From Armatimonadota bacterium (GTDB taxonomy: Bacteria > Armatimonadota > UBA5829), in the NCBI GenBank assembly GCA_012522575.1, contig JAAYKE010000129.1:1-35807 (forward strand): DNA of 35,807 nucleotides. Direction: 5' to 3'. Below are positions 19,126-32,307 of this stretch, piece after piece. The position numbers were made by a program, and so were the translations under genes. Position 1 is the first letter of the stretch; each line of letters begins with the position of its first letter. The notes below the pieces were generated by a model. The model was not told where the DNA came from. It saw only the letters and a list, made by a program, of their open reading frames with translations, and did not search any database.

Positions 19126-19178
19126 TCAAGTGAATGGCGGGTATATATGAGGCAGTTTTTAATATGGAGGTATATGAA

Positions 19179-19754
19179 ATGATCGAGCAATTGATCTGGC
19201 ATTCGTCGCTCGAAGAGGCCAGAGTCGAAGCGCAGGAAACGAACAAGGATCTATTTATCGACCTGTACAACCCCGGGTGATATGGTTGCCGGTATATGGA
19301 AGCCTACACATATCCGGACCCGCGCGTGTCGCGGTTAATCAACCAGCATGTAGTTGCAGTACAGATCAACGTCAAGGAAAACCCGGATGCCCCGGCCAGA
19401 TATCACGCTCAGTGGACTCCGGCGATAATGTATCAGGACGCCACAGGAAGAGAATTCCGCCGATCTTTTGGGCCGTTGAACGCGGATCAGTTTTTGGCGG
19501 AGTTCGCTATGGCTCACGCGCTGCGTCATTATCATGACTCACACTTTGAGAAGTCGATAGCTCTCCTTGAGAACGCGCTGGAGTACACAAAAATCGACCC
19601 GGAACGCCACGCCGAGAACCTGTATTGGATCGGCCCGGCAAAATATGAACACTCCGGCGATGTCGACGAGCTTATCGCAGGTTTCAAAGTTCTTCAGAGG
19701 ACTTATTCAAACAGCGACTGGGCCAAAAGGTCGAGACAACTTAAAACCAGTTGA
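19179..19754 (+). CDS. Candidate thioredoxin-fold selenoprotein (in-frame UGA in a UxxC motif)
   Basis: Read from the ATG at 19179 (GGAGG at 19166-19170), the frame runs 33 codons, meets TGA at 19278-19280, then continues open without a break to 19754, 191 codons in all. Around the TGA the protein reads DLFIDLYNPG-(UGA)-YGCRYMEAYTYPDPRV. This aligns with thioredoxin-like proteins where a CxxC motif follows the first long strand, so the UGA takes the place of the first redox cysteine (U34-Y-G-C37). The cis-proline loop is present (QWTPAIMYQD, P81). The C-terminal third is helical and TPR-like (KSIALLENALEYTKIDPER). A stem-loop with bacterial SECIS features starts 8 bases after the UGA. Gene finders would instead start at the internal ATG 19296 and lose the active site. 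Alternatives are a recent nonsense mutation or a sequencing error. No sel genes are in the window. Confidence 0.75.
19289..19317 (+). promoter_or_regulatory. Candidate bacterial SECIS hairpin
   Basis: CCGG (19289-19292), a single bulged U (19293) and AUAUG (19294-19298) pair fully with CAUAU and CCGG (19309-19317). That makes nine pairs with no mismatch, closing a 10-base loop GAAGCCUACA. The loop opens with G, 18 bases after the UGA. A bulged U, an apical-loop G and this spacing are features of bacterial SECIS elements such as that of fdhF. Confidence 0.65.
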
Positions 19755-19855: not shown

Positions 19856-21895
19856 ATGCCAAGATCAAACAGCCCGGGACGCCTAGCGACACGCCTTGCT
19901 ATAGTTGCGCGGGATATCGCGGAAGTGCATGGAGATCTCCGCGCGCAGACCGCCGCGTATGCGCTGTTGATGTGTCGCTGGGACACGGCGACCGATGTTT
20001 GCGGACTGCTGGATGGCTTCGATGATACTCAGGCCATAAGCCGAATTGAGAATGCACTGGACTGCCGCGAAGTCGATGAAACCCGGTTGTTTTACGAGGA
20101 CTCCGGTCGAGACGCGGCAGTCTATTTTTATGAGAGTTTTCTGAGGGCCTATGACCCGGAGCGATCAAAAAAACGCGGGGTTGTCTATACGCCGCCGGAA
20201 GTGATCGGTTGTATGGTTGATGGCGTAGAGGTGATTCTGCGCGACAGTTTAGGCGTGGGAATTGAAGAGGCAAAGGTTATCGACCCTTGCTGCGGAGTTG
20301 GAGCTTTTCTGCGATTCATCGAGCTTCGAGAACGTCAGCCACATAAGATGGTCGGAGTGGAGCTTATGCCCGCGGCGTGCGCGATTGCCCAAACTTTGCT
20401 TAAAAAGGCGGAGATAAGGCAAGTTGACTGGCTTTCGGAAGCATTCGACTATGATACAGGCGGCCCTATCGTTATACTCGGCAACCCGCCTTACTCCGGC
20501 CACTCCTCAAACGCAGGCAAAATTGCCGATCTGATGCGCAACTACCGCGAGGGAATTGCGGAAAGAAATCCCAAGTGGCTCCAGGATGATTATGTAAAGT
20601 TCATTCGAATGGCCCAGCATCATATCGAGAAAGCCGGGCGCGGCATTGTGGCCTTTATAACCAACCACAGCTACCTTTTCAATCCCACTTTCAAAGGGAT
20701 GCGATCGAGTCTGGCGGCGACCTTTGACGATATCCGCATTATCGACCTCGGCGGCAACATAAAGCAGCGGGGAGCCGCTGAAGAAAACGTTTTTCCGATC
20801 CAAGTTGGTGTTGCCATCGCTTTCTTCGTCAGAACCGGCAGGGGAGGATCTTCGATTCGATATGCGAACGTGACCGGAAGCCGGGAGGAGAAACTTAGGG
20901 CGGTGGAATCTTTTGATGTTCGAAACGGGACGTGGTCGGAGGTGTCGCCGATTGAACCCTTTCATTTGTTCATCGCACAGGATAGCAACCTGGCGCAGGA
21001 ATACTACGGCTTTTGTTCGATGTTCGAAATATATCTGACCAGCGTCATCGGGTTCGTCACCTCGCGAGACAAATTCGCGATTGGGCTCAGTCGACAGGAA
21101 GTGCTGGATCGCATAGGGCTGCTGAGAGATGGGGACGTGAGCGATGAGGAGCTTCGTGAAAAATACGGCGTCGGGGACCTCGATATTGACGCCGCACGCA
21201 GCCTGCTGAGAGATGATCCCGATTGGGAGATGCGGGTTGTCGAGGTGTTGTATCGTCCGTTTGATTACAGGTGGGCATATCATTGCCCTGTGATTATGGA
21301 AAGGCCGAGGCTGCCATTGATGGGGCTTATAAATGCCGAATACCCTGCGATTGCGGTCGGTCGCGCCGGTCGAGTGACGGGATCGGATGAATGGGATGTA
21401 GTATTCGCTGCGGATCGTCCGACTGATCTGAATTTGTTCAGACGCGGCGGGGCCAGGCTGTTTCCCGGATATATTGATAACTGCGGTCAGCGTCAATCGA
21501 ATGTGAAAATGCCCTGCGACGATCCGACTGCGCTGACATCGTTTATATATGCAATACTGCACAGCGGCAGATATCGAGCGCGCTATGCGGAGTTTTTGCG
21601 TGCGGACTATCCGAGAATTCCCATCCCTGAGGATCAATCTAAACTCCAGGCGTTGGCGCATCTGGGCAGCAGGCTATTTGATGTGCATTTGATGCGCGAA
21701 GGCGTCGATTTGGGCGTATGGGAAGCCGATGAAAAGGTGCGCATCGGAGGCTATGTGCTGCCTGATAAATATATAAATGACAGGGCGGCGGCAGGCTCCG
21801 ATCGGCAAATAGACAGGCTAAAATCGCTGATCAGAGAGAGTTTAATTATCAGGAAACAAATCGATGACGCGGTGGCGGAGGTCGGATTGTGGTAA
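19856..21895 (+). CDS. Orphan type ISP-like N6-adenine DNA methyltransferase
   Basis: Protein of 679 residues with the methyltransferase and target-recognition parts of type ISP (LlaBIII-like) restriction-modification enzymes. Seen in order: a helical N-terminal segment, KKRGVVYTPPEVIGCMV at about 106-121, SAM-binding motif I VIDPCCGVGAFL (about 141-152) and the catalytic NPPY motif in ILGNPPYSG (N210-Y213). Further on come AFITNHSYLFNPTFKGMR and the family-typical VLYRPFDYRWAYH. The last 200 residues would recognise DNA. The nuclease and helicase domains of a full ISP enzyme are absent and no restriction gene is adjacent. It may be a solitary regulatory methyltransferase or the modification remnant of a system. 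The methylated sequence cannot be predicted by eye. Confidence 0.85.
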   Translation: MPRSNSPGRLATRLAIVARDIAEVHGDLRAQTAAYALLMCRWDTATDVCGLLDGFDDTQAISRIENALDCREVDETRLFYEDSGRDAAVYFYESFLRAYDPERSKKRGVVYTPPEVIGCMVDGVEVILRDSLGVGIEEAKVIDPCCGVGAFLRFIELRERQPHKMVGVELMPAACAIAQTLLKKAEIRQVDWLSEAFDYDTGGPIVILGNPPYSGHSSNAGKIADLMRNYREGIAERNPKWLQDDYVKFIRMAQHHIEKAGRGIVAFITNHSYLFNPTFKGMRSSLAATFDDIRIIDLGGNIKQRGAAEENVFPIQVGVAIAFFVRTGRGGSSIRYANVTGSREEKLRAVESFDVRNGTWSEVSPIEPFHLFIAQDSNLAQEYYGFCSMFEIYLTSVIGFVTSRDKFAIGLSRQEVLDRIGLLRDGDVSDEELREKYGVGDLDIDAARSLLRDDPDWEMRVVEVLYRPFDYRWAYHCPVIMERPRLPLMGLINAEYPAIAVGRAGRVTGSDEWDVVFAADRPTDLNLFRRGGARLFPGYIDNCGQRQSNVKMPCDDPTALTSFIYAILHSGRYRARYAEFLRADYPRIPIPEDQSKLQALAHLGSRLFDVHLMREGVDLGVWEADEKVRIGGYVLPDKYINDRAAAGSDRQIDRLKSLIRESLIIRKQIDDAVAEVGLW

Positions 21896-29935: not shown

Positions 29936-30015
29936 ACAAGAGTTGGCAATAGAAACGCTACAATGACGCCAAAGTGAGCCACTCTCGCCGTAATCTGCAT
30001 TGGAGGGGATGTGTT

Positions 30016-32307
30016 GTGAAAAATATTCTACTTGCACTCACAATTGTGGGCATCATCGTTATAAGCGGCATTGCTTATGCCGATGTGAACCCTTGCGAGA
30101 TGATCTACATTCCCGCTGGTTCCTTTTTAATGGGCAACATAGGCAACGAGCCATTCAGTCTTCCCGATGAATTCCCGTTGCATTCCGTATATATGTCTGC
30201 ATATTACATCGGCAAATATCCGGTGACGCGAGGCGAATATCGTCAGTTTATTGAAGCAGGCGGCTACTTTAACCCATCTTATTGGTCAGCTGATGGCTGG
30301 CTCCAGAAGGAATTTCGCGGCTGGACACAACCTCTGTATTGGGCTGCGGAACAACAGTGGAGAACTGGATGGCCCTTCACCCAAACGGACGATCACCCTG
30401 TGGTTGGTGTAAGTGTCTACGAGGCTGAAGCTTTCTGCAACTGGGCTGGCGGACATTTGCCCACGGAGGCACAGTGGGAAAAAGCAGCCAGAGGAACTGG
30501 CAATCCGCCGAATATATATCCCTGGGGCGACGTATGGGATGCGGAAAAATGTAACAATCTGCGTGATAACAATCCCGCTGGCGGCGGATATGACGCCTGG
30601 TGTACGTCTCCGGTAGGCAGCTATCCGGACGGGGCGAGTCCTTACGGATGCATGGATATGGCAGGCAATGTTCATGAGTTCTGCAAGGATGCGTACCAGT
30701 ACGATTATTATTCTCAAACACCCGTTGGCGGCTGGATTGACCCCCTGGCGACTGCAACAGGCGTTCCGGTAGTAAGAGGGGGAAGTTTCCTGGGCAGTGA
30801 TCTAAACACCCGCTGTTCTTGTCGCGGACAATCTATGTATGATCGATGGTACCATTATGGCTTCCGCTTAGCCCGCCAGTCCGATTCGCCTTCCGACTAT
30901 GTAAGCATTAGCGAAGCTAAAAAGATGCCTGATGAATCAACGGTATACGTGAGCGGCATTGTTACATTAACCCAGGATACCGGCTACATATATATTGAAG
31001 ACGAGAACCGTATAAGCGGGATTCGCATTCAAACTCCCAATCAAGACATACTGCCAGGCGACAAAGTATACGCGTGGGGCGTTGTGAGGACCGATGCCAA
31101 TGCGGAGCGCTATCTCGAAAAACTGGTTATCAGCACATCGGGCAAAGGAGTTGTCGCGCCGCTTTGTTTAACAAATAAATCTCTTGGCGGAGGCGCTTTC
31201 GGCAATGTATCGGAGGGGAAAGGTCAGCGTGGGGTAACTGGAGGAACCGGGCTTAACAATATCGGCCTGCTGGTGCGCACTACGGGTGTCTGCAGCTTCA
31301 TCAACGAGCACAAATTTAGATTGAACGATGGGTCAGGGGTCGTTGTGCTTTGCGAAACACCTCCGGGAATCACTGTAAGCCCGGCCTGGCAGCATGTAGT
31401 CGTTACTGGAATCAGCTCAATACAAAAGAATGGGGATAATTACGAGCGCCTGCTCAAAGTTCGCTCAATTGACTATAACATCGAAATGATCGACATCCCG
31501 ACAGGCTCTTTTTTAATGGGCAACAACGGCTCTGAGTCTTATAGCTATCCCAGCGAACTGCCTCAACATTCCGTATATCTGTCCGAATATTCTATCAGCA
31601 AATATCAGATTACCAGGGGGCAGTATCGTGCATTTATGGACGCAGGCGGTTACACCAACCCTGCTTACTGGTCGCTTGATGGATGGAATTGGAGGTTGTC
31701 TGCAAACTCCTTCTATCCGGAAGTCGGCCCGCCTCGTATACAGCCAAGCTATTGGGCAGCAAGGCAGTCTTGGGGCGGCGGCGGGGTATTTAGTCAAACC
31801 GACGACCATCCCGTTGTTGGGGTGAGTTATTACGAGGCTGAGGCTTTTTGTAACTGGGCTGGAGGCTGCCTGCCAACAGAAGCCCAGTGGGAAAAAGCGG
31901 CCAGGTGGACTGGAAGTAGCCCGAATGTATATCCCTGGGGCAACGTATGGGATGCTGAGAAATGCAATAACTACTATGACCACAATCCGGCTGGCGGGGG
32001 TTATTTTAGATTTCAGACCGCCCCAGTTGGCAGCTATCCAGCGGGGATAAGCCCATACGGTTGTCACGATATGGCAGGCAATATTTGGGAGTGGTGTAAA
32101 GATTGGTACAGCGATAGCTATTATTCTGAGAGTCCAACGGGCGGTTGGGTGGATCCTCGGGGACCGGAGTCCGGCAGTTCCCGAAGTCACCGCGGTGGCT
32201 ACTGGTATGGCGATGAAAACGACTGCCGTTGCGCATATCGTCGGTATAATGATCCGGATTACTCCTATTACTCTCTGGGGTTCCGCTTAGCCCGTAAGGC
32301 CCGATAA
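30016..32307 (+). CDS. Secreted protein with two FGE/SUMF1-fold domains and a central OB-like domain
   Basis: Exported protein of 763 residues. The GTG at 30016 has GGAGGGG 7 bases upstream and opens a signal peptide (about 1-22). Domain 1 (about 28-290) and domain 2 (about 490-763) are both of the formylglycine-generating-enzyme/sulfatase-modifying fold and very alike. Each has IPAGSFLMGN, a TDDHPVVGVS segment, EAEAFCNWAGG, LPTEAQWEKAAR, YPWG, GC.DMAGN and a final GFRLAR. Between them, residues about 295-480 contain OB-like strands (VSGIVTLTQDTGYIYIEDEN). The paired active-site cysteines of true FGE are not evident, so a binding or structural role is more likely than sulfatase activation. 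Domain duplication is obvious; the ligand is unknown. Confidence 0.85.
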   Translation: MKNILLALTIVGIIVISGIAYADVNPCEMIYIPAGSFLMGNIGNEPFSLPDEFPLHSVYMSAYYIGKYPVTRGEYRQFIEAGGYFNPSYWSADGWLQKEFRGWTQPLYWAAEQQWRTGWPFTQTDDHPVVGVSVYEAEAFCNWAGGHLPTEAQWEKAARGTGNPPNIYPWGDVWDAEKCNNLRDNNPAGGGYDAWCTSPVGSYPDGASPYGCMDMAGNVHEFCKDAYQYDYYSQTPVGGWIDPLATATGVPVVRGGSFLGSDLNTRCSCRGQSMYDRWYHYGFRLARQSDSPSDYVSISEAKKMPDESTVYVSGIVTLTQDTGYIYIEDENRISGIRIQTPNQDILPGDKVYAWGVVRTDANAERYLEKLVISTSGKGVVAPLCLTNKSLGGGAFGNVSEGKGQRGVTGGTGLNNIGLLVRTTGVCSFINEHKFRLNDGSGVVVLCETPPGITVSPAWQHVVVTGISSIQKNGDNYERLLKVRSIDYNIEMIDIPTGSFLMGNNGSESYSYPSELPQHSVYLSEYSISKYQITRGQYRAFMDAGGYTNPAYWSLDGWNWRLSANSFYPEVGPPRIQPSYWAARQSWGGGGVFSQTDDHPVVGVSYYEAEAFCNWAGGCLPTEAQWEKAARWTGSSPNVYPWGNVWDAEKCNNYYDHNPAGGGYFRFQTAPVGSYPAGISPYGCHDMAGNIWEWCKDWYSDSYYSESPTGGWVDPRGPESGSSRSHRGGYWYGDENDCRCAYRRYNDPDYSYYSLGFRLARKAR

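Follow-up and report, generated by a model that had tools for sequence, protein, structure and literature searches.

An in-frame UGA in an Armatimonadota thioredoxin-fold gene and a predicted UxxC protein family in which selenocysteine predominates

Does a TGA codon that interrupts a thioredoxin-like reading frame in an Armatimonadota draft genome end translation, or is it read as selenocysteine (Sec)? The question arises at positions 19179-19754 (+ strand) of the window, the whole 35,807-nucleotide stretch of DNA analysed here, where the initial annotation had proposed a candidate selenoprotein. That proposal is supported by the presence of sel machinery in the genome and by the retention of TGA in 28 of the 30 homologs, and the three checks by which the initial annotation could have been refuted were all run and did not overturn it. 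The reading favoured here, with a probability of about 0.93, is that the gene encodes a cytoplasmic UxxC thioredoxin-fold oxidoreductase with a TPR-like tail, in which the UGA at 19278-19280 would be decoded as Sec by SelB with a bSECIS hairpin.

Results

The gene consists of 191 codons and a stop (19179-19754), with the putative Sec at codon 34, and homologs align over their whole length, several of them from residue 1. As the initial annotation had described, the frame is open except for the TGA at 19278-19280. It starts at an ATG with the Shine-Dalgarno sequence GGAGG 8 nt on its 5' side (19166-19170, + strand) and closes with an ordinary terminating TGA (19752-19754), where homologous sequence ends at about the same place. 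In the translation, the single internal TGA is U34 in ...DLYNPGUYGCRYMEAYTYPDPRV..., which is the first position of a UxxC motif (U-Y-G-C), confirming that NPG-U-YGC occupies the CxxC position and that the QWTP cis-proline loop (within QWTPAI) is intact. The listing of open reading frames under translation table 11 holds only a 152-aa ORF from ATG 19296, 117 bases downstream of the ATG at 19179, so that gene calling with table 11 would lose the active site; the earlier claim that the true start lies 117 bases before the frame of automatic callers is thus borne out.

The source genome, a 3.06-Mb Armatimonadota draft estimated to be 100% complete, encodes all of SelA, SelB, SelC and SelD, the genes that the initial annotation had singled out as a check, and so has the complement expected where a bacterial selenoprotein is made. 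SelA scored 556 bits; SelB, at 386.6 bits over profile positions 1-579, is complete down to the winged-helix region at its C-terminus; and the tRNA-Sec, with anticodon UCA, scored 72 bits. SelD (380 bits) has an in-frame TGA of its own at its catalytic position (GAG-U-ACK), where this enzyme usually carries Sec, and the genome therefore contains at least one other selenoprotein of classical type.

A protein search of 300 related genomes and a profile search of 291 Armatimonadota genomes recovered the same 11 full-length members, separated from other thioredoxins by a wide gap in score (199 vs 96 bits). The active-site codon is TGA in nine of these members, TGT in one (L029, KCVSC) and TTG in one (L025, NPTLVGS), the last having lost the partner cysteine along with the first active-site residue. 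The homolog searches were not conditioned on U or C at site 34; in a scan of 84,980 species genomes, the query was masked with X at the site and the patterns did not cover it. That scan, which was the sole sampling of Cys forms outside Armatimonadota, extended the family to Acidobacteria, Verrucomicrobia, Eisenbacteria, Deltaproteobacteria, Gemmatimonadetes, Bacillota and Proteobacteria, and every non-Armatimonadota member spanning the site had TGA there. A search of viral contigs found no relative, and a search of plasmids gave one partial match (31%), to a Prevotella record and covering the thioredoxin domain only.

Alignment of the window sequence with 30 full-length homologs from about eight phyla gave a column of 29 TGA, one TGT and one TTG. 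TGA is present in 28 of the 30 homologs, the same-genus ortholog among them, and Sec or Cys, the residues looked for at position 34, in 29 of the 30. Across these 31 sequences, therefore, a UGA is conserved at the redox position and a cysteine stands there in the non-Sec form, the pattern by which selenoproteins are recognised. W79-T80-P81 is almost invariant across the family alignment. Judged by this comparison, the UGA at 19278-19280 is neither a chance occurrence nor a sequencing error, since the codon recurs in register in the same-genus ortholog, at 72% identity, and in another 27 full-length homologs.

The distribution of the Sec form follows that of the machinery in Armatimonadota, with selA over the cut-off in eight of the nine Sec-form genomes and the ninth (G290) being 73% complete. 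Searches for tRNA-Sec and SelB agreed with selA apart from the gaps expected of draft genomes: G001 has selA and tRNA-Sec with no SelB match at the strict limit, and G043 has selA and SelB with no tRNA-Sec match. In the only Cys-form genome (G069, 91% complete), the searches found no selA, SelB or tRNA-Sec. Its TGT homolog, in a genome with no selA, selB or selC match, is the one exception to the absence of TGC and TGT from the relatives, which had been raised as a further check on the proposal. Among the draft genomes, G050 has two tRNA-Sec genes over the Rfam cut-off (G050:C7:75217-75307 and G050:C22:52032-52122, scoring 78.3 and 55.9 bits).

Both the Cys form and the dead form branch within a supported clade of Sec forms in the tree, so that Sec looks ancestral in the family on the simplest reading. 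The dead form, L025 (G011:C85:45671-46225, - strand), belongs to the taxonomic family of the window; it reads NPTLVGS at the site, keeps the rest of the protein, and is a dead or repurposed form. The Sec machinery is still present in its genome, G011. The gene is missing from most genomes of this same taxonomic family, which, together with the G011 protein that has neither Sec nor Cys, suggests that the function can be dispensed with in this family or is in part non-redox.

The bSECIS hairpin predicted downstream of the UGA (CCGGUAUAU-GGAAGCCUAC-ACAUAUCCGG region, 19289-19317, + strand) has 9 bp with one bulge and a 10-nt apical loop that opens with G and lies 18 nt after the UGA. It is near the published bSECIS model, in which a stem of 4-16 bp bears a loop of 3-9 nt with G in the first two positions at a spacing of 16-37 nt (PMC13188914), its own loop being one nucleotide longer than that range. 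Taken alone, the hairpin is unexceptional (shuffle z -0.71; synonymous z -1.04). In 15 sequences of one group, synonymous sites hardly vary across codons 4-9 past the UGA (GCT CGG CTG GAT GCC GAG), which form a perfect stem with the loop UGGAU; in the other group, ATGGRTGCCGTGACGTAYCC folds as a second hairpin type. Among pairs with the same residue, the share of identical codons was 0.69 following the UGA and 0.48 elsewhere in the first group (0.59 and 0.41, respectively, in the second), and the family-wide mean z against synonymous shuffles was -1.01 after the UGA and -0.07 elsewhere. Compared with 1157 control positions, the region following the UGA gave bSECIS-like hairpins of greater stability (P about 1e-7, which serves only as a guide because the sequences share ancestry). 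The bSECIS signal is weak in the window sequence alone and stronger, indeed clear, family-wide.

Residues 1-118 (19179-19532, + strand) form a thioredoxin-fold domain of the Thioredoxin_7/DsbD-gamma-like type, over which Pfam PF13899, PF13098 and PF03190 exceeded their cut-offs and which includes the cis-proline loop W79-T80-P81. In the AF2 model (pLDDT 95.7), residue 34 lies at the start of helix 2, giving a thioredoxin fold with the redox pair at that point and the cis-proline loop in place. A C-terminal helical domain follows at approximately residues 120-185 (19536-19733, + strand), modelled as helices 123-137, 141-159, 162-175 and 180-185; it is TPR/YbgF-like by family matches to YbgF/CpoB/TPR profiles and has conserved E-x-x-Y-W and W-A-K motifs. 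The 191-residue protein shows no evident signal peptide and no membrane domain. Its thioredoxin domain already starts near residue 6, too early for a signal peptide to precede it, so the protein is probably cytoplasmic.

The upstream neighbour is a DUF2961 gene on the other strand and is unrelated, as is the type ISP restriction-modification protein (N6 methylase and Type_ISP_C domain) encoded directly 3' of the selenoprotein gene at 19856-21895 (+). No gene neighbourhood is conserved among the relatives beyond near-identical Bacillota contigs, and the context therefore points to no pathway. Further along the window, positions 29974-32307 (+) encode a 777-residue protein with a C-terminal FGE-sulfatase domain (formylglycine-generating-enzyme-like).

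Two longer thioredoxin proteins of other Armatimonadota, each from a genome with selA, also have TGA first in CxxC: L050 (G246:C1:57413-57745, - strand; DFYTDW-U-GWCKRLE) and L052 (G039:C1:767868-768209, - strand; DFYTDW-U-GYCKKLE). They probably represent a second Sec-thioredoxin type in this phylum.

Discussion

What was observed is that the UGA lies in frame, that it is conserved and that the genome has every machinery gene; on this basis, SelB and Sec-tRNA would read the UGA at 19278-19280 as selenocysteine, steered by the bSECIS hairpin just downstream. The fold and the UxxC motif suggest a cycle in which Sec34, placed at the N-terminal end of helix 2, would attack disulfides or other oxidised groups of a substrate, Cys37 would then resolve the resulting selenenylsulfide, and electrons from the cell's thioredoxin-type supply would return the oxidised enzyme to its reduced state. 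The small TPR-like tail may pick the partner or substrate, which is the weakest step of the proposal. Strong comparative evidence thus points to the Sec step, the fold suggests the catalytic cycle, and the role given to the tail is a guess.

An alternative, which seems unlikely, accepts Sec insertion and makes the protein chiefly a small chaperedoxin in the manner of CnoX, with a tail that would hold oxidised or unfolded clients and a Sec/Cys pair that would protect their cysteines. The order of domains, an N-terminal thioredoxin and a C-terminal TPR, is that of CnoX (PMC6282202), yet the present protein, at 191 residues against about 282, has a far shorter tail. E. coli YbbN/CnoX was the top Foldseek match by E-value in structure searches of solved structures, but its whole-length overlay was poor (rmsd 11.6, TMq 0.41) and the thioredoxin domain is nearer to DsbD-gamma than to CnoX. 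The tail gave TPR/YbgF matches, and a holding role could explain why L025 persists with its tail intact and neither Sec nor Cys.

A wider form of this idea, in which the proteins would make up an undescribed 'seleno-chaperedoxin' family of about eight phyla, is likewise doubtful; a Sec thioredoxin with a mini-TPR would protect or repair clients, Sec would be ancestral and near-obligate, and Cys and dead forms would arise only by loss.

It is very improbable that the UGA goes undecoded, whether as a true stop or nonsense mutation ahead of a 152-aa protein from Met 19296 or within a decaying pseudogene. Automatic gene callers would report exactly this 152-aa ORF, but the frame is open on both sides of the UGA with homology upstream to residue 1, 28 of the 30 homologs, which come from about eight phyla, share the TGA, Sec machinery co-occurs with the Sec-form genes, and synonymous sites are constrained directly 3' of the UGA. 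Least probable of all is a genome-wide reassignment of TGA (for example to Trp or Gly), which exists in other lineages and found no support in this analysis, where TGG encodes the conserved tryptophans of this protein, its gene terminates at a TGA, Cys is the only other redox residue at the column and a tRNA-Sec with the UCA anticodon is present, in agreement with the earlier claim that the codon is not globally reassigned.

With decoding of the UGA as Sec retained as the preferred reading, the family is a Sec-dominant one of a known kind, the UxxC thioredoxin-fold selenoproteins. The 'Thiol:disulfide interchange protein' selenoprotein (PF13098, UxxC; PMC13188914, first proposed in its ref. 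12) shares the Thioredoxin_2-type domain and has Sec first in UxxC; as this protein (representative WP_011366075.1) was compared by the inventory's domain label only, the present family may be partly known already. The 2026 inventory of 119 families includes UxxC proteins with PF00085 and PF13098 domains, none of which, judged by labels, is described with a TPR tail (PMC13188914).

The DsbD gamma domain has the same fold, provides the closest solved relatives (1vrs and 2fwh, Z about 15.5, 29-31% identity) and gave the best NCBIfam match. It differs in having CxxC and in forming the periplasmic end of a membrane protein with three domains, whereas the protein described here has UxxC, a helical tail and no membrane domain. 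CnoX/YbbN has a thioredoxin domain followed by TPR in common with the family, but the CnoX tail is much longer, its motif is SxxC or CxxC, and the thioredoxin domains are not mutually closest. Membership of CnoX was considered and not adopted; the domain order matches and the tail is much shorter, and in view of the poor whole-length overlay on YbbN no such membership is claimed.

The VPGUxxT, Trx7/PDZ thioredoxin-like (seleno)proteins and TsoB (NF041383, NF041199 and NF045694) have the broad Thioredoxin_7/DsbD-like domain in common, some with Sec, but differ in architecture or in the position of Sec. Matches to these three models were local, with scores far below the curated cut-offs (at most 37 vs 275, 28 vs 300 and 54 vs 805 bits), and no NCBIfam model (June 2026) reached its cut-off for any of the 11 members tested.

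Selenoproteins are routinely mis-annotated as truncated, and in this case gene callers drop the active site and the family's library entry is missing. Review and prediction papers describe Cys homologs as numerous for almost every selenoprotein. In this family the situation is nearly inverted: 28 of the 30 homologs have Sec, and the sole Cys form comes from a genome in which no Sec machinery was detected. The family therefore offers a clean opportunity to ask which chemistry prevents the replacement of Sec by Cys. The family also adds a marker for Sec use to three phyla on which the literature searched is nearly silent, namely Armatimonadota, Gemmatimonadota and Acidobacteriota.
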